DNA of 64,000 bases from positions 62,001 through 126,000 of the forward strand of contig QAYY01000022.1 of the NCBI GenBank assembly GCA_003054665.1, given 5' to 3'. Source of the stretch: Opitutaceae bacterium EW11 (GTDB lineage: Bacteria > Verrucomicrobiota > Verrucomicrobiia > Opitutales > Opitutaceae). Of the stretch, positions 35,199-54,701 are shown one piece after another. The notes beneath the pieces were generated by a model that was not told the origin of the DNA, ran no database searches, and worked only from the letters and a program-made list of their open reading frames with translations. The position numbers and the translations under genes were made by a program. Position 1 is the first letter of the stretch, and each line of letters begins with the position of its first letter.

Positions 35199-35326
35199 GG
35201 GAGATCGGGCGGTTAAAACGCTGGGATCGGAGAGGCGACGGATGGCGGGCGCCGAGTGATGGGAGGTCGGCGGCCACGGAGCCTGTGGCGAGCGACGGAT
35301 TGTGGAATCCGGCAAGCGGTGGCAAG

Positions 35327-35341
35327 CAACAAACGTTTGCA
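35327..35341. promoter_or_regulatory. LacI-type operator (GH144-type promoter side)
   Basis: CAACAAACGTTTGCA; the central CAAACGTTTG (35330-35339) is a perfect 10-bp palindrome. It lies about 130 bases upstream of the minus-strand GH144-type start. Confidence 0.65.
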
Positions 35342-35472
35342 GCGCCTCCAGAGATGCTGCGATGGTCGATTTCAGAAGGCCGAGAGGGAATGACATAGAC
35401 CACGTAGGACCAACGGAAAGGGATGAAAATACTTCCGCTCGCCAGGAACGGACGGGCATTTTGGGCTTGCGT

Positions 35473-35486
35473 TGCAAACGTTGTCA
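35473..35486. promoter_or_regulatory. LacI-type operator (TonB receptor promoter side)
   Basis: TGCAAACGTTGTCA, which reads TGACAACGTTTGCA on the minus strand. With flanks it matches the box at 54596 over 17 of 18 bases. It lies about 250 bases upstream of the receptor start. Confidence 0.65.
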
Positions 35487-35736
35487 TTAAGCTGGCGGGC
35501 AGATGACGGGCCCTGGTCTCTGATTGGTGCCCGCCACCCACGACCCCTGCTTCCGGACCACCTGATGTTTGTTCTCCTTGACCGCCCGTCGGTGGCGTTC
35601 TCCGTTGCCTCCTTTCTTCCTCGAGGGGGCGCCGCAGACGACGCCGCGTGTATCCACGGAGTTCATCCAGGAGGACCGTGCTCCGGGTTCTGAACGCATC
35701 CGTATACCCAACCCAACCCCTAGCTAGTAGGCTGAC

Positions 35737-38583
35737 ATGAATACCCACCTGCCTCGACGGCTCGCCTTCGCTTTAGGAGCGACGCTCGTCTTTCCTCTCT
35801 CGCTCTTCGCGCAAGCGGCTCCCCAATCTGCGGCAAACTCGGACGCCCCCAACGAGACGGTGGTGCTCGATACGTTCACGATCCAGACCGACAAGGACAA
35901 CGGCTACATCGCCGTCGACTCTCTCTCGGGTGGACGCACCAATACCCCGATCAAACTCACTCCGGCGTCGATCGGCTCGGTCACCCGGGCTTTCATGGAC
36001 GACCTGGGCCTGACCAGCGTGCGCGACACGTTGCGGTGGACACCCAACGTCGTCGCCGAGGATCCCAACGCCGGCAAGGGCTTCGGCGGAGCCGCCTTTC
36101 ACGACTGGGCTTACAACTACCGCGGCGCCGGTGCCGGCGAACAAGGCGGACCCGGGCCGACGAGGAACTACTTCTCGTTCTTCCAAAACCAGGACACCTA
36201 CAACCTCGAGCGCGTGGAGTTCCTGCGCGGTCCGAATTCGATCATCTTCGGCCTGGGCACGGTCGGCGGCCAGCTGAGCGGTTATACCAAGATCCCCAAG
36301 GTCGACCGGGACTTCATCACCGCGACGCTCTTTGCCGACAGCAACAACAGCACCCGCGAGGAGATCGACATCAACCGGCGCGTCACCGACTCGCTCGCGA
36401 TCCGGGTGAACGCCGTCAACGATCTCCGGTACGGCTGGCGAAACAACGACGACAACAAGTTCAAGGCGGCCGACGTCGCGCTTCTCTGTCGGATCGGGCC
36501 CAACACCTCGATCCGCGTCGATGCGGAGTACGCGAAGACCTACCGCACGCTCATCTCCACCACCATCGGTGACAAGGTCTCCGGCTGGGACGGCACCACC
36601 GCCTCCCAGACCTGGGGCGCGGCGCCGACCGGCGGCTCCGCCCGCACCATCCCGATTCAGAATGCCGGCGCCTGGGGCGACTGGCTCAACCCGTTCTGGG
36701 TCTGGATCCCGAGCCTCGGCTCCAACTCGCTTATGAAGTGGGCCGGCGGATACGCGTCTTCCGGCGCCCTCGCGGACGTCGGACAGGCGCTGAACTATCA
36801 GCCGTACAAGGGCTGGTATCCGGAGCAGATAAAATTGTCGTGGGAGCCGAGCTATTCGTCGACCGCCAACGTCCCGGTCCGCTCCAGTCGCGACTGGACC
36901 TATGGCAGCGGCCGAAGCGACATCGACTACCGCGACCTCACGGTGTCCCTCGAGCAGCGGTTCACTCCGAACCTGGACTTCGTGGCGGCGTTCTACCGCT
37001 ATTACGACAATCAGACCGCCAAGGACTACGAGGGCACGGGCGGCTCCGCGATCGACATCAACAAGCAGCTGCCCGACGGGACGGCGAACCCCAACTACGG
37101 GAAGGCGTTTGCCGACTTCTTCCTCAGCAAACAGAACCAGCGCCACGACACGACGGAAGCCCGCGCGCAGCTCAACTATCACTTCGAATCCACACTCTTC
37201 GGCTCGAAGTGGACGCAGGTCTTCAGCGGAGCCGCGTCTCGCAAGAACCTCCGCCAGTCCGCCCGCCAGTACCTCGCGCAGGTCGGGAACGGCACCTCCA
37301 TCACCAATCCGGCCGATTGGGTGCAGAACATGGTTTGGGGTCGGATCTACCTCGATAACCCGAACCAGGTGATGAATGCGCCCGAGACCGCGCCGAACGG
37401 CCGCCTGATTTCCTACATGCCCAAGGCGGACGGCTACTGGTTCGATTTCGACGACGAGTTCAAACTCCAGGATTACGCGGTGATGTCGCAGTCGCGCCTG
37501 TTCGACGACCAGCTCTCGATCACGCTCGGCGCCCGGCGCGACCACTACAAGGAGCACCTGCGCGAACTGCGCCGCGGCCCCAACCTGACGGACAAGATCT
37601 CCGACGAAAGCCAGAGCGCGAACACCATCTCGGCCGGCGGCGTGTATTACCTGAAGGCCGGACTCGGAGCGGTGGTGAACTACTCGAAAAACATCCAGCC
37701 TCCCCACGCCGGCTCGCAGTCGATGCTGGACGGGTCTCGTCCGCGTCCGGAAACCGGCAAGGGCCTCGAATACGGCCTCCGCTACTCGAGCAACGACGGC
37801 AAGTATTACGTCACCCTGATCCGGTACGACACGAAGTCCCAGGGGCACCTCGTGGAGAATCCGATCGACCTCCGCGGCATCTGGCAGAAATACAACATCG
37901 CCAAGGGCCTCGCCTCCGAGTCGGGCAACGGCAGTCTCGCCTATTCGGATACGACGTCGCTTGACGTCACGGGCTACGAGTTCGAGATCACGGCAAATCC
38001 GACGCCGCAGATCCGGCTGGTCGCCAACTTCGGCAAACCCGACGCGACCATCGTGAACTATTATCCCGACAGCCGCGCGTACATGGCGGCGCATCTCGCG
38101 GAGTGGACCGCGGTGATGAACGACGCCAGCCTCGATGCGACCAAACGCAACGATCTCAGAACCCAGATGGCCAACGTCCAGGACAAGCTGGATCAGGCCG
38201 TCCCGGGCGCGAAGAACAAGGGACTGGTCGACTACACCGCGAGCATCTTCGGGTTCTACACCTTCCCGAAGCACGTCTTCCCCGGCTTCTCCGTCGGAGC
38301 GGGTGTCACCCGCACCGGCAAGACCTATGCCGCCACCTACGACAGCAAGGAGTATTTCGGCTCCGCGGTGACGACCACGGTGCTGGCGCTGAGCTACGAG
38401 ACGAAGTTAGGGAAAATTCCCGCCCGCTTCACGCTCGACGTCGACAACGTCTTCGATTCGCAGGACCCGATTGTCACCAGCTACCATTGGGGTTACGTCG
38501 ATAGCAACGGCACCCACATCAAGGATGCCTACTACTACCAGACACCTCGAACTTTTCGGCTAAGCGCTCGGTTCACGTTCTGA
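35737..38583 (+). CDS. TonB-dependent outer-membrane receptor (carbohydrate uptake)
   Basis: A 948-residue beta-barrel transporter. A signal peptide (RRLAFALGATLVFPLSLFAQA) precedes a TonB-box-like ETVVLDTFTI and a plug domain (about 45-210) with NLERVEFLRGPNSIIFG and TVGGQLSGYTKIP. The remainder is a 22-strand-type barrel ending in RTFRLSARFTF with the expected terminal aromatic residue. No SusD-like lipoprotein follows. This fits the Opitutaceae style of receptor working without a surface binding partner. It opens the plus-strand glucan gene series and is preceded by LacI-type boxes, so its cargo is probably a beta-1,2-glucan fragment (inferred from neighbours). Confidence 0.9.
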   Translation: MNTHLPRRLAFALGATLVFPLSLFAQAAPQSAANSDAPNETVVLDTFTIQTDKDNGYIAVDSLSGGRTNTPIKLTPASIGSVTRAFMDDLGLTSVRDTLRWTPNVVAEDPNAGKGFGGAAFHDWAYNYRGAGAGEQGGPGPTRNYFSFFQNQDTYNLERVEFLRGPNSIIFGLGTVGGQLSGYTKIPKVDRDFITATLFADSNNSTREEIDINRRVTDSLAIRVNAVNDLRYGWRNNDDNKFKAADVALLCRIGPNTSIRVDAEYAKTYRTLISTTIGDKVSGWDGTTASQTWGAAPTGGSARTIPIQNAGAWGDWLNPFWVWIPSLGSNSLMKWAGGYASSGALADVGQALNYQPYKGWYPEQIKLSWEPSYSSTANVPVRSSRDWTYGSGRSDIDYRDLTVSLEQRFTPNLDFVAAFYRYYDNQTAKDYEGTGGSAIDINKQLPDGTANPNYGKAFADFFLSKQNQRHDTTEARAQLNYHFESTLFGSKWTQVFSGAASRKNLRQSARQYLAQVGNGTSITNPADWVQNMVWGRIYLDNPNQVMNAPETAPNGRLISYMPKADGYWFDFDDEFKLQDYAVMSQSRLFDDQLSITLGARRDHYKEHLRELRRGPNLTDKISDESQSANTISAGGVYYLKAGLGAVVNYSKNIQPPHAGSQSMLDGSRPRPETGKGLEYGLRYSSNDGKYYVTLIRYDTKSQGHLVENPIDLRGIWQKYNIAKGLASESGNGSLAYSDTTSLDVTGYEFEITANPTPQIRLVANFGKPDATIVNYYPDSRAYMAAHLAEWTAVMNDASLDATKRNDLRTQMANVQDKLDQAVPGAKNKGLVDYTASIFGFYTFPKHVFPGFSVGAGVTRTGKTYAATYDSKEYFGSAVTTTVLALSYETKLGKIPARFTLDVDNVFDSQDPIVTSYHWGYVDSNGTHIKDAYYYQTPRTFRLSARFTF

Positions 38584-38601
38584 GCGGATTCTATGGTCAA
38601 C

Positions 38602-38633
38602 ACCGGCGGCGGCTTGTGTGGGCCGCCGCCGGT
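38602..38633 (+). other. Strong hairpin between receptor and phosphorylase genes
   Basis: Perfect 12-bp stem ACCGGCGGCGGC/GCCGCCGCCGGT around an 8-base loop, 18 bases after the receptor stop. No T-run follows, so it is more likely an mRNA-stabilising or processing structure inside an operon than a terminator. Confidence 0.65.
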
Positions 38634-38674
38634 CGAATCGTGCCGCGGGCGCTTGCCGCGACCACGCACCCATC

Positions 38675-41600
38675 ATGTCGCATCATTCCACTACAACGTC
38701 AGGAGAGTCCTTCGCCATCCCCGCAGCCGACGACCTCGGCCTGGTCACGCTGCGCCGAGCCGGAGGAGAGCTGGCGATCCAGTTGACCCATGACGGTGCG
38801 CTTTTCGCCATCCGCCATGGAAAGACGCTGGTCAACCAACTGCTCCCCGGGCCCGCGGAAGAGGGGCTCTTTCGTCTGTTGTTGAGGTGGCGAACCGACG
38901 CCGGGGGCTCCGGTTGGGCACCGCTGGTCGGCTCCGGCTGCGAGTGCGCGGTGGAGTCGGGCACTTCGGCCGTCTGGCGGTCCGTTCCCTTTCCGGGCTT
39001 GGAGTGCTCCGTCACGCTCGAGCTTCACCCGCGACACGATGCCTGGTCTTGGCGCGTGGCGGTGCGCAACACCGGCGATCGGACGTGCGAGTGCGAGATC
39101 CTTCTCGCCCAGGATCTCGGTCTCGCGGATGAGGCCGCCGTCCGGAACAACGAGGCATACACGTCTCAATACATCGATCTGCTGCCCATCGAGGATGCTG
39201 CGCTCGGCTGGATGATCTTCGCCCGTCAGAATCAGCCGGCGTCCGGCGGACGGCATCCGTGGTTGGGCGTGGCGTGCGGCGATCGCGCGGAGGCCTTCTG
39301 CACGGACGGCTGGCAGTTTTTCGGGGCCGATCACCGGTTGACCGGCGAACCCGCCGCGGTGCGGATGCGCATGCTGCCGTCGCGAAGGTCCCAATACGAC
39401 TTTGCCCTCGCCGGTTTGCAGAGCCGAAGCCGAAAGCTGGCTCCGTCGACCGCGGCGGAGTTCACGTTCGCCTGTCGGTTTGTACCCGATCATGCCCAGG
39501 CCTCCGAGCCGGCGGACACGGCGCTGATGCGTGAAGCCCTGGAAGGGCGGGCTCCTGCGGCGGGGCGCGGTGGGTTCCGTCATGCAGGTGTTGCCGCTGC
39601 GTCGCTCTTCGCGTCCGCACCGTGGCTGCACGGCGAAGTGCCGACGGCGGCCGATTGGGCGGCTTGGTTTCCTGGCTCCCGGCGCCAGGAGGAGATCGGC
39701 GGCGACGGCACGTTGCTTTCTTTTTTTTCTGCCACCGATACGCACGTCGTTTCCCGAGAAAAGGAGGCCGGCATCCTGCGACCGCACGGTCAGATTCTCC
39801 GCACGGGAAGGTGGTCGTGGATCGACGAGGAGCAGTTCGGCGTCACCTGCTACGCCGCAGGGGTGTTCGGAGCGCAGGCTTACCTCGGCAACCCAAGTTT
39901 GGTCCGGCTGCTGCCCGTCGTACGCAACGCCCTCGGACTCACGCGCGGCTCCGGCCAGCGGGTGTTTGTCCGCCGCAAGGGCGTTTGGCGTCAGCTAGGC
40001 ATTCCTTCCGCGTTTGCGATGACCCCCGGAGAAAGCCGGTGGTTGTATCGGTTTGCCAACGACGTGATCGAGGCCCGTGTCTGGTGCGCGCGGGACTTGC
40101 CGGCGTCGTTTCTCAGCCTGCGGGTCGTCGAGGGCGAACCGGCGGGGTTTCTCGTCAGCCATCAGGTGGTCCTTGGCCCCACCGAATTCGAACAACGGGG
40201 CGAACTCGCGCTGCACCGAGACGAGGCTTGGTTTGGCTGTGCGCCTGGACCCGGTTTGGTCGCCGACAAACTTCCGCGGGTCCGCTTTGCGATCGCCGCG
40301 GCGGAGGCGGAAAGCGTGGCGTCCGCGGGAGGCGACGAACTGCTTTTCGCCGACGGAGTCCGCCATCGCGGCGGATACGCGGTGCTTCAATCCGGGCCGA
40401 CTTCGCATTTCGGCGTGGTTCTGCTCGGGACGAGCGGGGGGGAGGAGGCGCTCGTTTCTGCCGTTGCAGCCAGCCGTCGGGCCTACCGCGATCCGATCCC
40501 GGCGGAGCCCGCGCCCCTCCCGGTCGAATTCGACGACTCCTGCGACGGGGGCGTGAGCCGGCTCGCCGAAGTGCTGCCCTGGTTCAATCGCGATGCGGCG
40601 ATTCATTTTTCGGCGCCGCACGGGCTCGAACAGTACGGCGGCGGCGCCTGGGGCGTGAGAGATGTCTGCCAGGGCTCCGTGCAGTGGCTGCTGGCCCATG
40701 GCGCCTACCCAGCCGTTCGCCGATTGCTGGAGCTGGTTTTCCGGCAGCAGTACGAGCCCGAAGGCGTGTGGCCGCAGTGGTTCATGTTCCCGCCGTTCCA
40801 GGCCATCCAGCAGACCGAGTCGCATGGGGACGTCTGTTTCTGGCCCATCAAGGCGCTGTGCGACTACGCCGAGGCCAGCGGCGACCTGCTGTTTTTGTCG
40901 GAGATCGTCGGATACACCGATCCGAAGACGTTTCTGGAGACCGGGCCGAGAGAGCCGCTTTGGCTGCACTGCGACCGCGTGATTCACCACGTGGAGTCGC
41001 GATTTGTGCCGGGGACGTCGCTGGTCAACTATGGCGACGGCGATTGGGACGACACTCTCCAACCAGCCGATCCGAAGATGCGGACGCATTTGATCAGCGC
41101 CTGGACCGTCGGCCTCGCGTATCACACGTTCCGTCTTTTCCGGGAAGTCTGCCGCCGCGCCGGCGAACAGGAGCGGGTTTCGCGCCTGGATGCGCTGCTC
41201 GGGCGGATGCGCCAGGATTTCTCCCGAAGCTTGATGCCGGGCGGAACCGTTTGTGGATTCCTGCTCACCGACCCGGAAAGCGGCTCGAGACCGCTCCTTC
41301 ATCCGGAAGACCGCGTGACCGGCATCCGCTACCGCTTGCTGCCGATGACTCGGGCGATCCTCGCGGAGCTGTTTACGCCGGAGGAGGCGAACCGGCACCG
41401 CGCCATCATCGAGGAGGCGCTCACCTATCCCGACGGCGTTCGGCTGATGAGCGAGCCCGCGACGTACCGCGGCGGACTCTCGAGGCTGTTCAAACGCGCG
41501 GAGACGGCGGCAAACGTCGGCCGGGAAATCGGCCTTCAGTATGTCCACGCGCATCTGCGGTACGCGGAGGCGATGGCCGTCGTGGGCGACGCGGAGCGAC

Positions 41601-42115
41601 TCTGGTGGGCGCTGCAGGTGGTGAATCCCGTGGCGCTCTCGGAAATCCTGCCGAACGCGGCGCCGCGGCAGGCCAATGTTTATTTTTCCAGCTCCGACGC
41701 GGACTTTGCGGACCGCCTCGAAGCCCAGGCGCGCTGGCAGGAGCTGCGGACGGGCCGCGTGCCGGTTCGGGGCGGCTGGCGCCTTTATTCGAGTGGTCCG
41801 GGGTTGTTCATCCATGCCGTTCGTTTCAGTCTCCTCGGCGTGCGCGAATCCTTCGGCGATGTCGTGTTCGACCCCGTCCTGCCCCGGAGCCTCGACGGGC
41901 TGGCGGTCTCCATCGGATTGTTCGGGCGCCCGGTGCGTATTCGCTATCGAGTGACAAAGGGATCGTGCGGCCCCAAGAGCGTGAGTGTGGATGGGGCCGT
42001 CCTCAGCGCGACGCGGGAGCCCAATCCATACCGAACCGGCGGCCTGCGCGTCAGCGGAGCGTCGCTCCTGCCTTTGCTCGAAAACTCCGATCCTCAGATC
42101 GAAATCCTGCTTTGA
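38675..42115 (+). CDS. GH94 phosphorylase, probably 1,2-beta-oligoglucan phosphorylase
   Basis: Cytosolic enzyme of 1146 residues with no signal peptide. It splits beta-1,2-linked glucose chains with phosphate to give alpha-glucose 1-phosphate. GH94 features are a long N-terminal beta-sandwich region, then an (alpha/alpha)6 barrel with the general-acid Asp at D663 in WGVRDVCQG. Near it are WPQWFMFPPF and YGDGDWDDTLQP, which are close to the active site in this family. A C-terminal jelly roll ends with FDPVLPRSLDGL. The size and lack of a GT84 domain fit stand-alone 1,2-beta-oligoglucan phosphorylase rather than cyclic glucan synthase. Cellobiose-type phosphorylases are shorter (about 800 residues). 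Confidence 0.8.
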   Translation: MSHHSTTTSGESFAIPAADDLGLVTLRRAGGELAIQLTHDGALFAIRHGKTLVNQLLPGPAEEGLFRLLLRWRTDAGGSGWAPLVGSGCECAVESGTSAVWRSVPFPGLECSVTLELHPRHDAWSWRVAVRNTGDRTCECEILLAQDLGLADEAAVRNNEAYTSQYIDLLPIEDAALGWMIFARQNQPASGGRHPWLGVACGDRAEAFCTDGWQFFGADHRLTGEPAAVRMRMLPSRRSQYDFALAGLQSRSRKLAPSTAAEFTFACRFVPDHAQASEPADTALMREALEGRAPAAGRGGFRHAGVAAASLFASAPWLHGEVPTAADWAAWFPGSRRQEEIGGDGTLLSFFSATDTHVVSREKEAGILRPHGQILRTGRWSWIDEEQFGVTCYAAGVFGAQAYLGNPSLVRLLPVVRNALGLTRGSGQRVFVRRKGVWRQLGIPSAFAMTPGESRWLYRFANDVIEARVWCARDLPASFLSLRVVEGEPAGFLVSHQVVLGPTEFEQRGELALHRDEAWFGCAPGPGLVADKLPRVRFAIAAAEAESVASAGGDELLFADGVRHRGGYAVLQSGPTSHFGVVLLGTSGGEEALVSAVAASRRAYRDPIPAEPAPLPVEFDDSCDGGVSRLAEVLPWFNRDAAIHFSAPHGLEQYGGGAWGVRDVCQGSVQWLLAHGAYPAVRRLLELVFRQQYEPEGVWPQWFMFPPFQAIQQTESHGDVCFWPIKALCDYAEASGDLLFLSEIVGYTDPKTFLETGPREPLWLHCDRVIHHVESRFVPGTSLVNYGDGDWDDTLQPADPKMRTHLISAWTVGLAYHTFRLFREVCRRAGEQERVSRLDALLGRMRQDFSRSLMPGGTVCGFLLTDPESGSRPLLHPEDRVTGIRYRLLPMTRAILAELFTPEEANRHRAIIEEALTYPDGVRLMSEPATYRGGLSRLFKRAETAANVGREIGLQYVHAHLRYAEAMAVVGDAERLWWALQVVNPVALSEILPNAAPRQANVYFSSSDADFADRLEAQARWQELRTGRVPVRGGWRLYSSGPGLFIHAVRFSLLGVRESFGDVVFDPVLPRSLDGLAVSIGLFGRPVRIRYRVTKGSCGPKSVSVDGAVLSATREPNPYRTGGLRVSGASLLPLLENSDPQIEILL

Positions 42116-42140
42116 TCCACCGCCCGACGTCATCGACTCC

Positions 42141-43556
42141 ATGACCCCACATCCACACCACACGACTGCGGCCGCCGATCGGATTCCCGTCGCCCAGAAA
42201 ATCGCCTATGGGCTCGGAGCGGTGGTCACGATCGTGGCGGTCAACTCCGTCGTACAGCTGACGAGCCTGGTGTACGTCGTGGGCCTGGGCATCAGCGCGA
42301 TCTGGATCGGCTACGCGCAGGCGTTTCCCCGGCTCTGGGATGCGATCGTCGATCCGTTTCTCGGGAATTACTCCGACAACTGCCGGTCGCGGTATGGCCG
42401 GCGAATTCCCTTTCTGGTCGTCGGCGGCATCCTGATCGGAATCGCGTTCTGGCTGCTGTGGACGGTGCCTCGCGATTGGAGCAAGCCGGCGATGTTCGGC
42501 TACTTCCTCGTGGTCTCGCTTTTCTTCTACACCGTGGTGCCCGTCTACGCCATTCCCCACGGGGCGCTGGGACTGGAGATGACGACGGACTACCACGAAA
42601 AAACCAGCCTGTTCGCCTACGCCAGTTTCATCGGCAACGTCGGCGCGCTGACGCTCCCGTGGGTGTACTTTTTCGCCAACCGGCCCGTTTTCCACGGCGA
42701 CACGGTGAATGGCGTGAAGTGGGTATGCCTCGGGATGAGCGTGGTCCTGACGGCGGCCGCGATGATCTGCGCTTTCGTCTGCAAGGAGGGAAAGTTCAAG
42801 CAGGCCAGCGCCCAGCCTCCCGTGCCCATCCTGCAGGGGTTCAAGGCGACCTACCGCAACGGCACCTTCGTGCGCCTCGTGGTCGTGTTTGTCCTCCTCA
42901 TTGTCGGCTTCCAGCTCGTGATGGGCTTCAACAACTTCATCACGATTTTCTTCCTTTACGGAGGCGATAAGGACGCCGCCTCGAGGCTCATGGCGCACAA
43001 CGGCACGCTCTGGGCCGCGGTCGGAATCCTGGGCGTCTTCCCGATGACGTGGTTTTCGAAACGTTTCGGAAAACGCGGCACGGTGATTTTCGCGCTCGCT
43101 CTGATCGGACTCGGAAATCTGTCCAAGATCGTCTGCTACAGCCGCGCCTACCCGTACCTGACGATGATCCCCACCGTATGCCTCTCGCTGGGCATGGTGT
43201 TCTGCTTTTCGCTCGTGAACGCGATGATCGCCGACATCTGCGACGAGGATGAACTCTCGACCGGCGTGCGCCGCGAGGGGATCTATTTCGCGGTGTACAA
43301 CTGGTGGTGGAAGGTCGCCGTCTCGATCGCGACGGTGATCAGCGGCTACCTGCAGCGGCTGACGGGCTTCGTCGAGGGCGCGGCCGTCCAGAGCGACGCA
43401 ACGCTGTTCTGGCTTCGCGCCTGGGAAATCGGACTGCCGCCGGTTCTCTGCTTCATCGGGATCCTGCTGCTGGCCAAATACCCGCTGAGCGAGGAACGCG
43501 CCTACGAGATCAAACATCGGCTTGCCGAGCGCCGCCCCGAGACGTCTCCGAGCTGA
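42141..43556 (+). CDS. GPH-family MFS sugar:cation symporter
   Basis: Inner-membrane importer of 471 residues with about 12 hydrophobic helices. Family marks are WDAIVDPFLGNYSDNCRSRYGRRIPF (the conserved Asp-rich first loop) and IADICDEDELSTGVRREGIYFAV, both typical of melibiose/pentoside/hexuronide transporters. It sits 25 bases after the phosphorylase gene. This position makes it the step that brings oligosaccharides from the periplasm to the cytosolic GH94 and GH3 enzymes. The substrate is inferred from neighbours, not from the sequence. Confidence 0.88.
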   Translation: MTPHPHHTTAAADRIPVAQKIAYGLGAVVTIVAVNSVVQLTSLVYVVGLGISAIWIGYAQAFPRLWDAIVDPFLGNYSDNCRSRYGRRIPFLVVGGILIGIAFWLLWTVPRDWSKPAMFGYFLVVSLFFYTVVPVYAIPHGALGLEMTTDYHEKTSLFAYASFIGNVGALTLPWVYFFANRPVFHGDTVNGVKWVCLGMSVVLTAAAMICAFVCKEGKFKQASAQPPVPILQGFKATYRNGTFVRLVVVFVLLIVGFQLVMGFNNFITIFFLYGGDKDAASRLMAHNGTLWAAVGILGVFPMTWFSKRFGKRGTVIFALALIGLGNLSKIVCYSRAYPYLTMIPTVCLSLGMVFCFSLVNAMIADICDEDELSTGVRREGIYFAVYNWWWKVAVSIATVISGYLQRLTGFVEGAAVQSDATLFWLRAWEIGLPPVLCFIGILLLAKYPLSEERAYEIKHRLAERRPETSPS

Positions 43557-43660
43557 CGCCATTTTCCGGATACCTGCGGGACGACGTGGACGGGGATGTG
43601 GAGTTCTCCGGCCGAGGACGTTCGCTCTGTACCCGGACCCATCCCCAAGGTTTTTCCTCC

Positions 43661-46600: not shown

Positions 46601-46864
46601 GCCGGCGTGGAGGTCCGCCGCATGCCCACCTACTTTGGCCCGGTGGACTACTCACTGAAACGCGCGGACGGGGAGGGCGGTGCGCCGCTCCGCGTCGTCG
46701 CGACGGTTGGTGGCCACCTGTCGGTTCCGCCCGGCGGAGTGATCCTCAAGTCACCCCTGAATCGGCGCGTCCGGGCGGTCGCCGGAGACGGACGCCTCGC
46801 GGCCCCGGAGAGCGACGAGATTGTTGTCACGCGGCTTCCGGCAAAACTCACGATCGACTACTGA
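43661..46864 (+). CDS. Secreted multidomain (alpha/alpha)6-type glycosidase-like protein with discoidin-like domain
   Basis: A 1067-residue protein with a signal peptide (ALVTAMVFGASLASA). A CBM-like beta-sandwich (about 25-185, VVLDDFAKIDGW to CIDNLRFEPI) is followed by an F5/8 type C domain (about 200-310, SEYEVALSDDGATWTTC, LRLTVHP). A large beta region comes next (about 330-590), then a helical barrel (about 605-960). The barrel contains YERAWIRDGS (R637 to D642), a motif shared by GH15-like and related (alpha/alpha)6 enzymes. The family number cannot be assigned by eye. Its place between the sugar importer and GH3 implies a role on beta-1,2-glucan or its fragments in the periplasm or outside. 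Confidence 0.7.
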   Translation: MSHLLPILTRYLRGALVTAMVFGASLASAESVVLDDFAKIDGWRAYPSEGASATLTSIPGPHGSALAMDFDISRGRGHAIARKDFAIDLPANYQFTFDLRADSPVNNFEFKLLDAEGNVWWQKTLDFQFPTEWTKQRIARRHLSFAWGPSGGAEIRQLKAIEFVVSCATGGKGRLCIDNLRFEPIDDAAARNARATLDVSSSREGRTPAVDPKGSVVTDWLPASGAAESMSLDFGYARELGGLVIDWKPEEHASEYEVALSDDGATWTTCASVSRGNGGRDHVYLGEQQARHLRLTVHPRATGSPVTLQRLEVKGPDYGASPNAFFQAVASDAPRGCFPRYFTPEQSFWTVVGSPADPSEALINEDGAIEVDQGCFSIEPFLYVDGRLVTWHDAGERQSLERGYLPIPSVEWKSGDLTLTVTAFASGEAGPQSRLWATYRLSNSGAPVRAKLYLALRPFQVNPPWQSMQHAAGWARVARIAYRDGIVMVNDRSVYPLDTPSGFGATTFSSGEIVEHLRAGQLPAETAVDDPLGFGSAALAYDCDLGSGGFREVRLAVPFHGGGIAPVVNQAPENAEADAAKAHEATRRMWEAMLDRFDVRLPSAAQPVIDTVKSNLAYIFINQDGPRIQPGSRNYERAWIRDGSLTSTALLELGITSEVRDYADWYSGFQFASGKVPCVVDSRGADPTDEHDSHGQLIYLIMQVYRFTHDTAWLRTRLENVTRAVRFIHQLRELRKTDVYRNGTPEQRACFGLAPESISHEGYSAKPMHSYWDDFFILRGLKDATSIAGILGEPALQAEFAAERDDCAKDLYASIRLAMQNRQIDYIPGCAELGDFDATSTTIALCPVNELGRVPEPALHNTFDRYFRSFEARRDGAVAWKDFTPYENRVIGSFVYLGQKQRAQAALEFFMKQRRPAAWNHWAEVVFPDPRTPRFIGDMPHTWCGSDFIRSVRAMFVYEREQDDALVLGAGVADEWVHDPAGVEVRRMPTYFGPVDYSLKRADGEGGAPLRVVATVGGHLSVPPGGVILKSPLNRRVRAVAGDGRLAAPESDEIVVTRLPAKLTIDY

Positions 46865-46902
46865 GCGCGACGGTTGCCCGGACGAAGAACCGCTGCCGAT
46901 CC

Positions 46903-49116
46903 ATGACGACCATCCCCGACTACAAGAATTCCGCCCAGACGGAGGATCGCCGTGTGGCCGATCTGCTCGCGCGCATGACCCTCTCGGAGAAGATCGACCA
47001 GCTGCACCAGTGCGCCGTGGGCGACGCCAATCCGAACAACATCCAGGAGCGGCCGGATCAGTTTCGCGCCACCTACGGCTCGTACATTCTCAACGGCGCC
47101 GAGGACCGGCCGCTCCGTGATGAACTGCAGCGACGTTGTCTGGAGGAGTCGCGTCTCGGCATACCCGCGATCTTCGGTGCTGACGTGATTCATGGCTATC
47201 GCACGATTTTCCCCATCCCGCTTGCGCAAGCCTGCGGCTGGAACCCGGAGCTGGTCCGAACGGTCGCGCGTGCCGCGGCGGTGGAGGCGCGGGCGGCCGG
47301 CGTCGACTGGACCTTCGCGCCGATGCTCGACCAGTGCGTCGACCCTCGCTGGGGGCGGATCGCGGAGACCTTCGGCGAAGCTCCCCACGCCGCGTGCGTG
47401 TTCGGCGCCGCCGCCGTGGAGGGCTACCAGGGACAATGCCTCGACGCCGAGGACTCCGTCGCGGCGTGTTTGAAACATTTCGTCGGATACGGGGCGTCCG
47501 AGGGCGGACGCGACTACAGCGCGACCGACATTTCTCCGCAGCGCCTATGGGAGCTGCACTTGCCTCCGTTCGCGGCCGGCGTGCGCGCCGGCGCGCTGAC
47601 GGTGATGAGTGCGTTCAACGACCTCAATGGAATCCCCGCGACCGCGAACGCCTCGATCCTGACCCGGATTCTGCGGGAGCGTTGGGGATTTTCCGGCCTT
47701 GTGGTCTCGGACTGGAACGCGGTGCTGCAGCTGTGCGGTCAGGGCTTCGCCGCCGACGAGGCCGAGGCGGCGGGCAAGGCGTTGCTGGCGGGTGTGGATC
47801 TCGACATGGCCGACGGGCTCTACCGACGCCACCTCACTGGAGCGATTGCCGACGGCAGGGTGCCGAGGGAGGCGCTGGACCTCGCCGTGAGCCGCGTTCT
47901 TCGGGTGAAGTTTCGTCTCGGACTTTTCGAACGGCCTTTTGCCGGGCGCGGACGAAGTGTTACCGCGTTCTTGCCGGAGCACCGCGCGCGGTCGCTGGAG
48001 TCCGCCGCCGAAACCGCGGTGCTGTTGAACAATCGCGAAGGCATCCTACCGATTGCGCCTTCCGTGCGGCGGATCGCCGTCGTCGGGCCGCTCGCCGATG
48101 GACGCGCGGAATTGCTCGGTTCGTGGGCGGCGCAAGGCCGGGCCGAAGACGTGACGACGATCCTCGAGGGGATTCGTTCGGTGGCGCCGAACGGCACCGA
48201 GATCAAGTTCGCCCGCGGATGCTCGCTCGGAGGCTCCGACGATGACGGCAGCGTGGGCGAGGCGGTCGCCTTGGCCCGCACGAGCGACCTCATGGTGCTG
48301 TGCCTGGGCGAAGCGGCGACGATGAGCGGCGAGAACGCTTCGCGCGCGCTGCTTCGGCTGCCGGGAGCGCAGATGGGCCTGGCGACGAAGGTGGCGAGCG
48401 CCGGGAAGCCGGTGGTGGTTCTGCTCGTCTCTGGACGGCCGGTCGACCTGGAGGGGATCGAAGAGCGCGCGGTCGCCGTGCTGGCGCTCTGGCAGCCCGG
48501 AACGGCGGGCGGCCTGGCCGCGGCCGAATTGCTCTTTGGGAAACGCAACCCGTCGGGGCGCCTTGCAGTGACCTGGCCGCGCAGCCCGGCGCAGATTCCG
48601 ACGTACCACCACATGCGGCCGAGAGCGCGCGGGCTCGGCGAGGGACGTTACCAGGATCTCGATACGGCGCCCTTGTTTCCGTTTGGCCACGGGCTCTCGT
48701 ACACGGAGTTCGAATACGGGCCGATCGAACTCGATCGGGCGGAGGTGGGCGCCGATGAGATCTTGTCTGCCTCGGTCACCGTCACCAATCGGGGGCGCCG
48801 AGCGGGTGCCGAAGCGGTGTTGTGGTTTATCCACGATCCGGCCGCCTCGATCACGCGGCCTTTGTGCGAGTTGAAACATTTTGAGAAAGTCCGACTCGGT
48901 CCCGGAGAAACGAGCCGCGTCCAGTTCGCGATCGAACCGCGTCGGGATCTGAGTTTTCCGGATGCGAACGGAAATCCGGTGCTCGAAGCCGGCGACATCC
49001 TGCTGAGTGCCGGACCGCGGCAGGCGCGGTTCCGCGTTCGTCTTCGGAGTTCCGCGGCTCCCGACGTGCGTGGTGCGGCGCCGGGCTCCGGCCGAGCTGA
49101 CTTCATTCCCTTATGA
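46903..49116 (+). CDS. GH3 beta-glucosidase
   Basis: A 737-residue exo-hydrolase releasing glucose from beta-gluco-disaccharides or oligosaccharides. The (beta/alpha)8 domain (about 1-360) has the nucleophile D270 in VVSDWNAV. The alpha/beta domain has the acid/base E477 in MSGENASRALLRLPG. A fibronectin III-like domain closes the protein (RDLSFPDANGNPVLEAGDI). There is no signal peptide (MTTIPDYKNSAQTED), so it probably works in the cytosol beside the phosphorylase, hydrolysing the short ends such as sophorose. The start at 46903 is the first ATG after the previous stop. Its last four bases overlap the GH89 start (ATGA). Confidence 0.88.
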   Translation: MTTIPDYKNSAQTEDRRVADLLARMTLSEKIDQLHQCAVGDANPNNIQERPDQFRATYGSYILNGAEDRPLRDELQRRCLEESRLGIPAIFGADVIHGYRTIFPIPLAQACGWNPELVRTVARAAAVEARAAGVDWTFAPMLDQCVDPRWGRIAETFGEAPHAACVFGAAAVEGYQGQCLDAEDSVAACLKHFVGYGASEGGRDYSATDISPQRLWELHLPPFAAGVRAGALTVMSAFNDLNGIPATANASILTRILRERWGFSGLVVSDWNAVLQLCGQGFAADEAEAAGKALLAGVDLDMADGLYRRHLTGAIADGRVPREALDLAVSRVLRVKFRLGLFERPFAGRGRSVTAFLPEHRARSLESAAETAVLLNNREGILPIAPSVRRIAVVGPLADGRAELLGSWAAQGRAEDVTTILEGIRSVAPNGTEIKFARGCSLGGSDDDGSVGEAVALARTSDLMVLCLGEAATMSGENASRALLRLPGAQMGLATKVASAGKPVVVLLVSGRPVDLEGIEERAVAVLALWQPGTAGGLAAAELLFGKRNPSGRLAVTWPRSPAQIPTYHHMRPRARGLGEGRYQDLDTAPLFPFGHGLSYTEFEYGPIELDRAEVGADEILSASVTVTNRGRRAGAEAVLWFIHDPAASITRPLCELKHFEKVRLGPGETSRVQFAIEPRRDLSFPDANGNPVLEAGDILLSAGPRQARFRVRLRSSAAPDVRGAAPGSGRADFIPL

Positions 49117-51395
49117 TCACGCCTGTCCCGAATCTCTTCCGCCGTTGCGCGCTGGCGCTGCTGGGCGCCTCCGCTGTCGCTTGGGCGGAGCCGTCGAAAC
49201 CGGCGCCTCCGGCGCTGGATGCCGCTCGTGCGTTGGTGACCCGCATTCTTCCCGCCCACGCCGTCCAGATCGATGTCGAGTATTGCCCCCGGGAAGCGGA
49301 CGGTTCGGACGCGTTTGAAGTGGAAACCCGTGCGGGCCGGCTCGTGTTGAGAGGGCAGAATGGCGTCACGATCGGCTCGGCGTTGAAGTGGTACCTTCGC
49401 AACGTCGCCCACGCCCAGATCTCCTGGAATGGCGACAATCTTGCCTTGCCGGCGCAGCTCGACCCCGTGCCCTCCAAGGTGCGCGTCTCCTCGCCGTACC
49501 GGCACCGGGTGTACCTGAACTACTGCACCTTCAACTACACCGCGTCCTGGTGGGACCGAGCGCGGTGGGAGCGGGAGATCGACTGGATGGCGTTGAACGG
49601 AGTGACCACGCCGCTGGCGGCGACCGGGCAGGAGGCCGTATGGCAGAACGCACTACGGCGTGTCGGTTTTGCCGACGAGGAAATCCGCCGCTATCTGGTC
49701 GGCCCGGCCTACGGCGCCTGGCAGTGGATGACGAACATCGAGGAGTGGGGTGGGCCGCTTCCGCAGTCATGGATCGACTCCCACGCCGAACTCGGTCGGT
49801 TCATCCTCGAACGCGAACGCGCGCTCGGCATGACGCCCATTCTGCAGGGCTTCACCGGCTGCGTGCCGCTGGCGTTTCTCGAGATGTATCCGAAGGCGCG
49901 GATCCTGAAAAAGAAGGTCTGGTGTCTGGTTCCGCCCGGCACGGCTCAACTCGATCCCGAGGATCCGCTGTTCGCGGAGTTCGGGCGCGTCTTCCTCGAG
50001 GAACAGACGCGCCTCTTCGGCACGGATCACCTCTATGCCTGCGATCCCTTTCACGAGGGCGAGCCGCCGAAGGACACGCCGGACTACCTTCACGATGTGG
50101 GCGTCCGTCTGTTCCAGGTGACACAGCGGTTCGATCCCGAGGCGATCATCGTCATGCAGGGCTGGACCATTCGCGAGGGGATCGTTCGCGGGATACCGGC
50201 GGACCGGCTCCTCGCCCTCGACCTGACGGGGCAGAAGTGGCGCGAGACGGGGGCCTTCTGGGGACGGCCTTGGGTGGCAGGCATCATCCAGAACTACGGC
50301 GGGCGGCATTATCTCGGCGGAAATCTCCCACAACTCGCAACCAATTCGCCTTCGCTGCTCGCCGATCCGCGGCAGGGCGGCCGGATCGTGGGCGTGGGAC
50401 TTTTCCCGGAGGCGATCGAACACAATCCGCTGCTCTTCGACCTCGGCCTTGATCTGGCGTGGCATCGCTCGGCGGTGGAGCTTCCGGCGTGGGTGCATGG
50501 ATACGTCCTGGCACGCTACGGGCACGACGTGCCATCGGCTCAGCACGCGTGGTCGTTGCTTCTCGGCTCGGTTTATTCGCAGCGCAGCCCAGAGCCGCCG
50601 ATGGAAAGCCCGCTGCTCGGCCGGCCGGCGCTCACGATGACGATGGCCTCGCCCTGGGGTTCGTTTTCGCGGGACTACGACGTGATGGCCGTGTGGGACG
50701 CCTGGGCGGCTCTGTTGAGCGCGGCGCCCGAACTCGGAAAAGTGGATACGTTCCGGTTCGATCTCGTCGACGTGGCGCGCCAGGCCTTGGCGGACCTTTC
50801 GGTGCCGCTCCAGCGCGAGGTGGCTGCCGCGTGGGAGTCGGGCGATGCACGGCGTTTTCATTCGGCGCGCGATCGGTTCCTCGAGCTGGGAGCGGACCTC
50901 GATACTTTGCTGGCAACGCGCCGCGATTTTCTCCTCGGACGCTGGCTCGCCGACGCCCGTCGCTGGGGCACAACGCCGGCCGAGTCGGACCTCTGCGAAC
51001 GCAACGCACGATTGCTTCTCACCGTCTGGGGTCCCGAGAGTCCGAAGGCTTACATCTTCGATTACGCCGGGCGTCAGTGGGCGGGGATGCTTCGAGGTTT
51101 TTATCTCGAACGCTGGAAGAAGTTCTTCGCCTTTCTCGAAACGCAGCGTTCCAGCTATCGGGACGACCAGCTCGCACGAGGAACGAACCGTCCCGACAAC
51201 GACGCCAACCCGTTCTATCGCGACCTCTCGCATTGGGAGTACCTGTGGTGCGAATCCCACGAGACCTATCCGACAGCCGAGACGGGCGATTCGGTCGAGA
51301 CAGCCCGTGCGCTGCTGACCAAATGGCTTCCCGTCATTCGGGAAAACGCCAGTCGCTTCGATTGGCAGCGCGCCGAGTTCCGCAGCGGGAACTAG
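49113..51395 (+). CDS. Secreted GH89 family enzyme (alpha-N-acetylglucosaminidase-like)
   Basis: The 760-residue protein has a signal peptide (FRRCALALLGASAVAWA). Family features are an N-terminal alpha/beta domain, then the TIM barrel from about residue 120 (HRVYLNYCTFNYTASWWDR, EREIDWMALNGVTTPLAATGQEAVWQ). Catalytic candidates are E315 in DPFHEGEPP and E433 in LFPEAIEHNPLLFDL, both at the positions conserved in GH89. The helical C-terminal domain follows. Known GH89 members cleave terminal alpha-GlcNAc; in this glucan operon the substrate may be different. Translation is coupled to the GH3 gene through an ATGA overlap. Confidence 0.85.
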   Translation: MITPVPNLFRRCALALLGASAVAWAEPSKPAPPALDAARALVTRILPAHAVQIDVEYCPREADGSDAFEVETRAGRLVLRGQNGVTIGSALKWYLRNVAHAQISWNGDNLALPAQLDPVPSKVRVSSPYRHRVYLNYCTFNYTASWWDRARWEREIDWMALNGVTTPLAATGQEAVWQNALRRVGFADEEIRRYLVGPAYGAWQWMTNIEEWGGPLPQSWIDSHAELGRFILERERALGMTPILQGFTGCVPLAFLEMYPKARILKKKVWCLVPPGTAQLDPEDPLFAEFGRVFLEEQTRLFGTDHLYACDPFHEGEPPKDTPDYLHDVGVRLFQVTQRFDPEAIIVMQGWTIREGIVRGIPADRLLALDLTGQKWRETGAFWGRPWVAGIIQNYGGRHYLGGNLPQLATNSPSLLADPRQGGRIVGVGLFPEAIEHNPLLFDLGLDLAWHRSAVELPAWVHGYVLARYGHDVPSAQHAWSLLLGSVYSQRSPEPPMESPLLGRPALTMTMASPWGSFSRDYDVMAVWDAWAALLSAAPELGKVDTFRFDLVDVARQALADLSVPLQREVAAAWESGDARRFHSARDRFLELGADLDTLLATRRDFLLGRWLADARRWGTTPAESDLCERNARLLLTVWGPESPKAYIFDYAGRQWAGMLRGFYLERWKKFFAFLETQRSSYRDDQLARGTNRPDNDANPFYRDLSHWEYLWCESHETYPTAETGDSVETARALLTKWLPVIRENASRFDWQRAEFRSGN

Positions 51396-51490
51396 CGCCG
51401 CGGGCAGAGAAATCGCTGGCTCACCGCACGCGCTCAGCCTGATACGGGATTCGTTTTCGCACGCCCAAACGCGGATCTGGGATCTCGCGC

Positions 51491-51709: not shown

Positions 51710-51737
51710 GCGGGCATTCCCGCATTCGAGGAACGCC

Positions 51738-54497
51738 CTACTGCAGTCGGAGCAGGCCGAGGACGACATGCTCGTCGGATTGACGCTGGTAATTCCAGCT
51801 GAGCTTGAGCGTCGGCTCCCATTCCTTCGTTCCCTCGCGCATCGCCGCAGGGGAGACGCCGAGTTCGAGCCCGGGATGGGGCGTGACGCCGAAACTTTTC
51901 CAGGGGATTGCGGCGTCGACCGAATAGCCGGTCGAGCCCTGTTTGACCGTGGCGCTGGCCGATACGCCGTGAAACCACTCGCGGACGTTTCCGTCCTGCA
52001 TGAAGTAAAACCGGTAGTCGTCCTTGCCCATCCAGACGAGTTGGTCGCCGACGGCGTCCACCATCAGCTCGACATACCGGTTGCTGTCGGCGGGCATCTT
52101 GTATCCGGCGGGCGAATCCATCACTTCCGCATGGAGATAGAGCGCGGTGTTGTCCCACGTGAAGGCGAAGCGCATTTCCAGCGAGGGGTCGCCGGGCAGC
52201 ACATCGGCTTCGCTGTCCTTGTATTCGAGGCCGGCGAGTTTGTGCCAATCCCACTGCTCGCGCGGCGTATCGGCTCTGAGGGCGATCCCGCGCCGCTCCG
52301 GGGTGGCCTGGAGTGGACCGCTCAATTCGAATCTCGCGGCCAGCGACGTGTCGCGGCCGAAGGGTGCCTGGACGAACTCCTTCAGCGCGCTTCTCCCGCG
52401 CAGGACGAGCGGATCCTGCTGGAACCACTCGCGGGTGCAGTCCGGGACGAGCACGTTGGCCACCACGATGAGGAAGGCGGCCCGCTGGGCCGGAGGCGCC
52501 GAGGCGAGCCAGTCCGGAGTGGGGCGCATGGCTTTGAGCCGCTGGGCGGACTCCGACGGAAACCGGTCGAGGAGCAGCGCCGTGGAGATGACGTCGTGAA
52601 GGTGCGGCGGCTGCGGACCTTCGGTGTCGGCGATCAGCTGGGCGTAGGCGTACTGGCTGGCGGACGCTCCGGTGATCGTGGCCTGCTCGTCGAGCCAGAG
52701 TCCCGGCAGAAGCTGTGCTGCGGGCTCGGCGGGGGCCAGCGAATACACCGGGCCCACCCGCACGGGCTCGCGCGTGAGGTCGGTCCACACGGTGGACGGG
52801 CCGCTGCCTGAGGCAAACTGCAGGAACGCAGCCAGACGGCTTCCGGAGCCGAGTTGTGTAGCGGAAAGGTGGATGCGCGACCAATCGATGGTCTCGAGCA
52901 CGCGGGTCGCGTCGGCCTCGAGGGCCGGCAGAGCCTGGCGGAGGGTGATGAGGGCGGCGGCGAACTGCGAAAGCGCGACGTCGTCGGTCGGATGAAATGA
53001 CTGGGCGAGAAAACTGCGCGCCCGGGCGAGGGTGTCGTCCGTGCTCAGAAAACCAAGGGCGTGCGCGGCGAGGATCCCGGTGAGGTGGAGTCCGGCGTTG
53101 GACGGCTCGGCGGTGGTGCTCGCGAGCGATTGCCAGGCCTGCACCGCGAGACCGCGGATAAAACGCGAGTCGTCGAGGGACAGCACGCGGTTGGTGGAGA
53201 CGAGGCCCGCCTTCTGGATGGCCTTGCGCACTTCCGGGGCCTGCATGAAGAGCGCCCAGATCAGACCGCTGCGGGCGTTTTCGGCCTGCAGGAGCGTGAT
53301 GCCGACGTCGATGCCGAGGACGTCGGCGTTGACCCAGCCCGTTTGCGGGTTGAACGCGTCGACGAAGCCGTACCGCGACCAGATCTTTTCGCCGTAGATC
53401 GTGCGCATGTGCCGCAGCGTCAGCATCGACTCGTACGGGGCGAACGGCACGGCGCCGGCGGCGGCGCAGGGAACGATCGTGCCGTCGAGCGCGTTGAACT
53501 GGAGCGTGCGGGGCGGTCCGCCCCACGCCTTGTAGCCGGTGGCCGAGTCGGAAGCGGAGATGCCCCAAAGCCGGTCGCTCCAGCTGGGAAATTCCTTGCG
53601 CAGATCGATGCAGAACTGCCGCTGGGCGAGGGTGGCGAGGAAGGAGTTGCGGTAGTAGTCGGCGTAAGCGTCGCGCCGGCCGCGAAAGTCCACGTAACAA
53701 TGCGCGAACTGATGGATGAAGAGGGGCGCCTGCTGAATGTAGTGGAGACCTGCGTACGTGCCGACCGGCTGCCGCGCCCAGGCCCGCCAATATTTTGAAT
53801 CGAGCGAGTGCCGCGGCGCGCCGAGCGCGAGGAAACTCATCATCAGGTGTTCCGAGTAGTTGTTCCACCGGTACCGGGAGAAGCCGGTCTCGGGATGCCA
53901 GCCGAGGGAGACCGTTTCCCCGCCGTTCAGGAACCACTGCCAGTCGACCTCCTCGTAGAGCTGGTTGACGAGAGCCGTGATTTCCGGGTCCTGAAAATAC
54001 TCCCGCGCGACGATGGCGCCCGCGAGCATCAACGCGGTGTCGATGGAGGACAGCTCGCATTTCCACGAGCGCTCCCCCGTATCCATTTCCATGAAGTGGT
54101 AGAAGAACCCGTGTTCGCGCGGAGCCTGCGTCGCGAGAAACCTGAGCATGCCGCGCACTTGTTCGAGCGCCTCGGTGCGCCCCGTCCAGCCGCGATGGGT
54201 GGCCACGACCCACGCGCTCAGGGCGAAGCCCGAGACGGAGACACTCGCCTTGCCCTCGCTGGGCGAGCCGTCGGCCCGTGCGCGGTCGCGGACGAGGCCT
54301 GTTATTGGGTGAGTCTGTTCGGCGAAAAACTTGAACGAAGCCCGCTGGAGATCGTCGAGAAACGCGTCGTCTTCTCCGGGCAGGTTGGTGGCGGGGTGGG
54401 CGCCCGGCACGACAGCTAGTGGGGAACTCGGAACGGCGCCGAGGCGGGGGACGGTCGCAAAAGCGAGGGCGGTCAGGGCAAGAAGGGTACGAAGCAT
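51738..54497 (-). CDS. Secreted GH144-like (PF10091) enzyme with C-terminal CBM9-like module
   Basis: The 919-residue protein has a signal peptide (MLRTLLALTALAFATVPRLGA). The catalytic-type domain (about 40-440) follows the same plan as the other GH144-type protein in the locus but is clearly diverged: FKFFAEQTHPITGLVRD, CELSSIDTALMLAGAIVAREYF, YSEHLMMSFLALGAP, SRYGFVDAFNPQTGW. A helical region follows (about 450-680). The last 190 residues (about 730-919) resemble a CBM9-like sugar-binding or cytochrome-associated domain (FTWDNTALYLHAEVMD, AIPWKSFGVTPHPG). Two LacI-type boxes lie 100 and 190 bases upstream. I chose the ATG at 54497 for the signal peptide. Confidence 0.72.
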   Translation of the reverse strand: MLRTLLALTALAFATVPRLGAVPSSPLAVVPGAHPATNLPGEDDAFLDDLQRASFKFFAEQTHPITGLVRDRARADGSPSEGKASVSVSGFALSAWVVATHRGWTGRTEALEQVRGMLRFLATQAPREHGFFYHFMEMDTGERSWKCELSSIDTALMLAGAIVAREYFQDPEITALVNQLYEEVDWQWFLNGGETVSLGWHPETGFSRYRWNNYSEHLMMSFLALGAPRHSLDSKYWRAWARQPVGTYAGLHYIQQAPLFIHQFAHCYVDFRGRRDAYADYYRNSFLATLAQRQFCIDLRKEFPSWSDRLWGISASDSATGYKAWGGPPRTLQFNALDGTIVPCAAAGAVPFAPYESMLTLRHMRTIYGEKIWSRYGFVDAFNPQTGWVNADVLGIDVGITLLQAENARSGLIWALFMQAPEVRKAIQKAGLVSTNRVLSLDDSRFIRGLAVQAWQSLASTTAEPSNAGLHLTGILAAHALGFLSTDDTLARARSFLAQSFHPTDDVALSQFAAALITLRQALPALEADATRVLETIDWSRIHLSATQLGSGSRLAAFLQFASGSGPSTVWTDLTREPVRVGPVYSLAPAEPAAQLLPGLWLDEQATITGASASQYAYAQLIADTEGPQPPHLHDVISTALLLDRFPSESAQRLKAMRPTPDWLASAPPAQRAAFLIVVANVLVPDCTREWFQQDPLVLRGRSALKEFVQAPFGRDTSLAARFELSGPLQATPERRGIALRADTPREQWDWHKLAGLEYKDSEADVLPGDPSLEMRFAFTWDNTALYLHAEVMDSPAGYKMPADSNRYVELMVDAVGDQLVWMGKDDYRFYFMQDGNVREWFHGVSASATVKQGSTGYSVDAAIPWKSFGVTPHPGLELGVSPAAMREGTKEWEPTLKLSWNYQRQSDEHVVLGLLRLQ

Positions 54498-54595
54498 GGG
54501 ACGTTTGGGCTGGCGCAGGAGGGGGACTCCTCGCGCGGCTGAGACGGTGATGCGAAGGGACGAACAAGAAGAGCAAACAGGTTGCCCGCTGAAAA

Positions 54596-54609
54596 TGACA
54601 ACGTGTGCA
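54596..54609. promoter_or_regulatory. LacI-type operator (proximal)
   Basis: TGACAACGTGTGCA, one mismatch from TGACAACGTTTGCA, about 100 bases upstream of the second GH144-like gene. Confidence 0.6.
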
Positions 54610-54687
54610 ACAAACGACAGAGTCAATGCCCGAGTTTAACAAAATGAGAGAGGAAGCGCGTGTAAGGCGTTTCGCCAGGATCAAGGC

Positions 54688-54701
54688 TGACAACGTTTGC
54701 T
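54688..54701. promoter_or_regulatory. LacI-type operator (distal)
   Basis: TGACAACGTTTGCT, one mismatch from the box at the TonB receptor promoter, about 190 bases upstream of the second GH144-like gene. Confidence 0.6.

Follow-up and report, generated by a model that had tools for sequence, protein, structure and literature searches.

LacI-family regulators of local sugar regulons, as set out in the section of PMC4052901 on their binding sites, use palindromes of 16-22 nt, and about 20% of the operons described there have more than one site. A glucan-related case is the Listeria innocua cluster around the 1,2-beta-oligoglucan phosphorylase (SOGP) gene lin1839, which is adjoined by a LacI gene, lin1838, that may regulate the cluster according to the authors; the passage concerned (PMC3960220) names no operator. 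Here we analyse a 64,000-nucleotide stretch of the genome of Opitutaceae bacterium EW11 (contig QAYY01000022.1, positions 62,001 to 126,000; "the window" means this whole stretch), in which copies of a 14-mer box, TGACAACGTTTGCA, stand before genes that, judged by sequence, probably serve the uptake and digestion of beta-1,2-glucan. As in the described part of the Listeria cluster, a LacI-type gene has genes for a 1,2-beta-oligoglucan phosphorylase and a GH3 enzyme as neighbours, whereas the ABC-type uptake genes of Listeria are matched here by a TonB receptor and an MFS transporter; the likeness of lin1838 to the present LacI is one of gene context. With the regulons of PMC4052901, to the extent of the section cited, the locus shares an even, CG-centred site near and upstream of the regulated sugar genes, probable autoregulation and more than one site before an operon, but its site is strictly asymmetric and mostly oriented, unlike their palindromes. 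The matches listed from the literature include no LacI regulon for beta-1,2-glucan in Verrucomicrobia or Opitutaceae, and this local LacI-family regulon appears to be new. Our preferred reading, to which we give a probability of about 0.86, is that the LacI-family protein whose gene lies at 31878-32963 uses the boxes as its operators and would act locally to repress a regulon for beta-1,2-glucan utilisation.

The box and its probable partner regulator

The main predicted operator is an exact copy of TGACAACGTTTGCA at 35473-35486 on the minus strand, read as TGCAAACGTTGTCA on the plus strand, the direction of the receptor. It is located between a divergent GH144-type gene and the TonB-receptor gene, 274 bp before the start of the former and 250 bp before that of the latter, and relatives have the same site. 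Two further copies, each with one mismatch to TGACAACGTTTGCA, precede the second GH144-type gene: a predicted operator at 54596-54609 (plus strand; TGCACACGTTGTCAT in the direction of the gene, minus), 98 bp before the start, and a weaker operator-like site at 54688-54701 (plus strand; AGCAAACGTTGTCA in the gene direction), 190 bp before it. These two share one orientation and are 92 bp apart, which is also the spacing of the lac operators O1 and O3, and by that analogy looping between them is conceivable. The coordinates and letters of all three boxes, reported in a first-pass annotation made from the DNA alone, proved correct, as did the agreement of the 35473 and 54596 sites over 17 of 18 bases including flanks (AATGACAACGTkTGCAAC). 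Their placement in the intergenic regions before the receptor and the two GH144-type genes holds with ATG starts at 35198, 35737 and 54497; longer, TTG-started readings of both GH144-type open reading frames (ORFs) would extend up to or over boxes 35473 and 54596. The boxes are confirmed as real and as more than chance.

The genome scan that the first-pass annotation had named as the test that could refute its box returned only four sites within one mismatch of TGACAACGTTTGCA in 6.4 Mb, three of them the reported boxes and the fourth (G000:C15:134830) inside a DUF2851 coding sequence; composition predicts 0.68 such sites per genome and 0.007 per 64 kb. The box withstood this test. With two mismatches allowed, the whole genome holds 18 sites, while the reversed control gives 9 (one of the 14 two-mismatch sites, at C24:228, was placed and lies inside an ORF), and with three the window holds 6 against 2.75 expected, a count that 7 of 100 shuffles reach and that is not significant. 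It is therefore the near-exact sites that carry the claim. With this genome left out, a matrix was trained on its relatives and scanned over 118 kb of the contig; it placed 35473 first at the maximum of 30.8 and the site at 54595 second at 24.2, while 54687 reached only 19.0, tied with the coding site in the DUF2851 gene. In 142 kb of stretches from elsewhere, chosen non-randomly for holding two-mismatch matches or LacI genes, a site inside another ORF scored 22.9. Boxes 35473 and 54596 are credible sites in their own right; 54688 is weak by itself and is believable mainly because it lies so close to 54596, in the same promoter.

Because the genome encodes 29 proteins with a LacI-type helix-turn-helix (HTH), neighbourhood alone proves little, and a comparative test was needed. 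Among 150 genomes of the family, 20 carry an orthologue of the local LacI (at least 64% identity and at least 503 bits; the next best match has 174 bits and 33%) and 20 carry the SOGP phosphorylase, with 19 carrying both. The exact 14-mer occurs in 19 genomes (reversed control, 1), namely in 16 of the 20 that have the orthologue and 3 of the 130 that lack it (Fisher p about 3e-15, uncorrected for relatedness), a co-occurrence that supports the earlier proposal of a LacI-type box with a small regulon. The four remaining LacI-bearing genomes (G124, G071, G147 and G129) have one-mismatch boxes at the expected place, and in G129, which has the LacI and no phosphorylase, that box precedes a GH144-type gene. 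Within one mismatch, the 15-mer TGCAAACGTTGTCAT is found at 32 sites, 1-3 per genome, in all 20 LacI-bearing genomes (reversed control, 2), as against 2 sites in a single one of 20 LacI-less genomes (reversed control, 0), which we picked from the 130 out of the same genera (7 genera, against 9 in the LacI-bearing set). All 32 sites are at most 900 bp from where a homologue of one of the locus genes begins, the starts in relatives being estimates from tblastn. In G003, which has the phosphorylase and no LacI orthologue, no copy of the 15-mer within one mismatch exists anywhere in the genome.

The exact 14-mers of the 150 genomes number 26, with 18 at SOGP loci and 8 elsewhere. Five of these 8 belong to LacI-bearing genomes (G115, G073, G039, G113 and G007), and all five adjoin GH144-type genes, PF10091 having been identified by Pfam in G115, G073 and G007 and by tblastn in G039 and G113; in G113, at a contig end, the box precedes a GH3-GH144 pair. 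In such cases the box can serve to annotate unlinked glucanase genes. Among the LacI-less genomes, the exact box of G049 precedes a RyR/TrkA-type gene and that of G032 is inside an ORF. When the search was widened to 384 genomes of the class, LacI orthologues outside the family appeared at 62% (G269), 51% (G372) and 43% (G285) identity and then at 35-38%, and the Puniceicoccaceae genome G269 (LacI at 62-63%) keeps the exact box. Named loci with a LacI at 63-73% identity show a box within one mismatch beside lacI in 23 of 23 cases; in 22 the box is downstream of lacI, on the side of the enzyme genes, and in one (L201, on a short contig) it is at the lacI start. This set overlaps with the compared genomes, and 9 of the loci were counted as new. 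With hardly a letter changed across some thirty LacI-bearing relatives, the box is very probably the site that this LacI recognises.

Two clusters met in this comparison are recorded separately. In G007, a GH2 gene, a short PF10091 protein and a TonB receptor occur together with two boxes (L134:3512-10470), which suggests a wider regulon in that genome. G122 has a second SOGP locus (L083, contig C480) that carries an exact box and beside which no LacI orthologue was found; it is a possible target in trans.

The presumed box binder, a LacI-family regulator encoded on the plus strand at 31878-32963, is a protein of 361 residues starting with MGTRLRSPN, with the HTH sequence GIVQIAESIGVSPSTVSRALRPETAHLV. 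Its HTH matches the LacI-type model PF00356 at 29.7 bits (cut-off 27), and its sensor domain is periplasmic-binding-protein-like (PF13377, 109.3 bits; cut-off 26.5). The structure model (mean pLDDT 77.4, falling to a mean of 38 in hinge residues 61-70) was used for the fold only, and its best Foldseek matches are RbsR, PurR and CcpA. The fold is also that of E. coli LacI, with 26% identity to 1EFA. CcpA, PurR and RbsR are among the best matches both in sequence and in fold, but the present system gives no sign of a global regulon and the protein does not reach the NCBIfam cut-offs for CcpA, RbsR, PurR, CytR or GalR; none of the 18 curated NCBIfam LacI subfamily models listed reaches its cut-off, the best being CytR at 157 against 436 bits. 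The records closest to the protein are mostly labelled Opitutaceae or Opitutia. Twelve aligned orthologues share an invariant ETAHLV stretch, and after the recognition helix the orthologues are longer by two residues than three other LacI proteins in the same alignment. The relevant part of the recognition-code paper PMC2978694 offers no prediction for the residue pair Pro-Ser.

Proposed promoter layout, direction and possible autoregulation

In order to describe the surroundings of the box, we aligned 30 main boxes, one per locus (20 from the compared genomes and 10 from the named loci), which include several species of one genus; the significance of promoter, reverse-strand and lacI-upstream patterns was judged with simple letter shuffles. 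The 14-mer is exact in 23 of the 30 and has one mismatch in the other 7. TTG occupies positions -6 to -4 in 27 of 30 (the box of the window included), a T directly follows the box in 29 of 30, and positions -14 to -10 are AT-rich. The pattern nAnnnT occurs 16-17 bp after TTGCnn in 19 of 30, compared with a shuffle mean of 2.8 and a maximum of 8 in 2000. The alignment points to a candidate -35 element, TTGCGT, at 35467-35472 and a candidate -10 element, TAAGCT, at 35488-35493 (both plus strand), separated by 15 bp in the window. On the simplest reading the box fills the spacer between a TTGC-type -35 and a -10, which suggests a repressor operator. The alternative of TTGTCA as the -35 was rejected, as the region 16-18 bp on is GC-rich and only 1 of 20 boxes has A at the second -10 position.

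The two halves of the box differ: the side facing the target reads GTTGTCA and the other GTTTGCA. Written as TGCAAAC|GTTGTCA, the box is CG-centred and by sequence has the make-up of an operator, and because 5 of 7 positions per half are symmetric it is only an imperfect inverted repeat. The proposal of a LacI-type box thus stands as regards a predicted LacI site, but in place of a plain palindrome we find a fixed asymmetric sequence with a preferred direction. The target start lies downstream of the GTTGTCA side in 48 of 54 boxes and on the other side only in 5, three of which are at a GH144-type start in one genus; the single box with no target is the coding-region site. Such a strict, oriented operator is the one surprising feature of this regulon and offers a testable case for the recognition of unequal half-sites by a LacI homodimer. 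According to the portion of PMC2978694 that treats them, natural lac operators also lack symmetry. A reverse-strand promoter was considered as the main cause of the asymmetry and set aside as the weaker pattern (12 of 30, where shuffles average 5.4 and reach at most 13); for the divergent GH144-type gene of the window, a reverse promoter is kept as a possibility.

Upstream of lacI itself, a symmetric site like TGCAAACGTTTGCA (at most two mismatches) is present in 21 of 30 regions, compared with 0.1% of shuffles, and the asymmetric site at the same tolerance in 7 of 30. The symmetric sites point to autoregulation and link the GTTTGCA half with this LacI. Just 2 bp before the lacI ATG of the window, at 31860-31875, lies TGCGAAACGTTTCGCA, a perfect 16-bp palindrome that the first-pass annotation did not list with the boxes; it is the sole perfect copy in the genome and a possible autoregulatory site, and within two mismatches it does not recur near lacI in the relatives' loci. 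As a tentative idea that we consider doubtful, one LacI dimer might use two operator classes, a symmetric one with GTTTGCA twice at its own gene and an oriented one with GTTTGCA and GTTGTCA in catabolic -35/-10 spacers; the ETAHLV stretch and the two extra residues may let the subunits read different half-sites and make direction part of the signal.

A related palindromic site that had been reported at 35327 is present as described, as a secondary LacI-type site at 35327-35341 (plus strand) upstream of the GH144-type start at 35198. Its 12-mer core, CAAACGTTTGCA, at 35330-35341, has no second copy in the genome. G013, which has the same gene order and was the only relative compared for this site, showed no counterpart within two mismatches of TGCAAACGTTTGCA.

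Weighing the operator reading

From these features we infer protein binding, repression, an inducer and the enzyme activities, which would fit together as follows. The regulon would comprise the TonB receptor, the 1,2-beta-oligoglucan phosphorylase, the sugar transporter, the GH3 enzyme and the two GH144-type glucanases. With no substrate at hand, a LacI dimer would occupy TGCAAACGTTGTCA in the -35/-10 spacer of the receptor/phosphorylase promoter and exclude RNA polymerase. The inducer would be a sugar derived from beta-1,2-glucan, with sophorose or a short sophoro-oligosaccharide as the likeliest candidates; it would bind the periplasmic-binding-protein-like domain and cause release, after which glucanases, receptor, transporter, phosphorylase and GH3 enzyme would be made together; the sites before 54497 and before the unlinked GH144-type genes of relatives would put these enzymes under the same control. 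For Opitutaceae and their relatives, this provides a candidate operator, a promoter layout and a target list for beta-1,2-glucan uptake.

Several observations weigh against this reading. The HTH score is close to the cut-off, dropping just under it (25.9 bits, cut-off 27) when the longer ORF is used, and the genome has many LacI-type HTH proteins from which to choose. The -10 element in the window requires the 15-bp spacer, and when 35200-35760 was scanned with a plain sigma-70 pattern, the one promoter returned was on the minus strand, at box 35473. Nine of the 30 lacI upstream regions, that of the window included, are without a symmetric site, and the lacI of the window carries the different palindrome at 31860 in its place. 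In the LacI-less genome G008, the exact box is intergenic with no identified gene behind it. None of 8 loci of distant LacI homologues (35-51% identity; L183-L190) has a box within one mismatch, two of them having a two-mismatch site, and one of the box-less loci, in G372, has GH144- and SOGP-type neighbours. Finally, the Fisher p is only a guide because related genomes are not independent.

The choice among so many LacI-type proteins raises the question of whether another paralogue, or a global CcpA-like regulator, binds the boxes while the local LacI binds only the palindrome at 31860. Beyond the 29 candidates, this is favoured by that different perfect palindrome before the local lacI, by the resemblance of the box to a cre site and by the place of CcpA among the best sequence and fold relatives; yet the box goes with this particular orthologue (16 of 20 genomes that have it, 3 of 130 that do not) and box-like symmetric sites stand in 21 of 30 upstream regions of this very lacI. 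A global regulator should have many more sites than the 1-3 per genome seen for the 15-mer within one mismatch, and a CcpA-like regulon was rejected on that count. We regard this explanation as unlikely. Alternatively, the same LacI might bind the boxes but activate transcription, or serve as a switch that acts in both directions, on the receptor operon and on the divergent GH144-type gene. The asymmetry of the box would fit, the target start lying downstream of the same side in 48 of 54 boxes as if direction mattered; so would the promoter-like pair that overlaps the box on the minus strand here and the reverse-strand -10-like signal in 12 of 30 boxes, which 6 of 2000 shuffles reach. Against these variants, a dimer bound to the box would sit within the inferred forward -35/-10 spacer and should obstruct polymerase, and members of the LacI family are mostly repressors; at the 22 named loci where the box is downstream of lacI, the reverse direction would run antisense into lacI. 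This too seems improbable, to about the same degree as binding by a paralogue.

It is also conceivable that the conserved letters are core promoter only, with no dedicated regulator, since a conserved TTG and AT-rich elements flank the box. A spacer, however, can normally drift in sequence, the box also precedes unlinked GH144-type genes that have no TTGC at that place, and the exact box is absent from 127 of the 130 LacI-less genomes, so that we consider this very unlikely. Least credible of all is a chance similarity of a few AT-rich intergenic words. The three-mismatch count in the window, which is not above shuffles, is in its favour, as is, for 54688 alone, a matrix score equal to that of a coding site; all comparative results oppose it and refute it for 35473, and chance was rejected on the genome count, the distribution over 16 of 20 against 3 of 130 genomes and the LacI-less controls. 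The reading that we retain is repression by the local LacI from the predicted operators.

Genes of the glucan locus

The locus runs from lacI (plus strand) through the first GH144-type gene (minus), box 35473, a block from receptor to NAGLU (35737-51395, all plus) and the second GH144-type gene (minus) to boxes 54596 and 54688. The two GH144-type enzymes, at 32985-35198 (minus) and 51738-54497 (minus), belong to the family by sequence, with PF10091 at 224 and 219.8 bits and relatives 5Z06, 5GZH and 8XUL in the PDB. The first is closest among solved structures to 5Z06 (BDI_3064); the second, which also has a CBM9-like domain, is closest to 8XUL (XcSGL, XCC2207), an enzyme classed as GH144 in the relevant passage of PMC12102758. 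The TonB-dependent receptor (35737-38583, plus) is the first gene of the presumed operon. It is followed on the same strand by the phosphorylase of 1,2-beta-oligoglucan phosphorylase type (38618-42115, ORF as listed), assigned by sequence through SOGP_N at 195.8 bits, SOGP_2nd at 137.8 bits and a match to 5H3Z with E 1.5e-192. Next come an MFS_2, GPH-like sugar transporter (41985-43556, plus; ORF as listed, with the true start probably internal), whose TIGR00792 score of 161 bits is under the cut-off of 231, and, after the large protein discussed below, a GH3-type glycosidase (46585-49116, plus; ORF as listed).

The large conserved protein at 43304-46864 (plus; 1186 residues for the ORF as listed) has an F5/8-type C domain and no catalytic family assignment. 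It recurs with 57-65% identity at 8 of 20 relatives' SOGP loci, with one further partial match at 44%. A weak hint of TIGR01577 oligosaccharide amylase, far under the cut-off, and domain matches to solved "glucanase/chitosanase" chains were also noted; it is possibly a new glucan enzyme. A NAGLU (alpha-N-acetylglucosaminidase family) protein at 49113-51395 (plus) ends the presumed beta-1,2-glucan operon, and a NAGLU-family protein is also found near the SOGP locus in G147 and G071.

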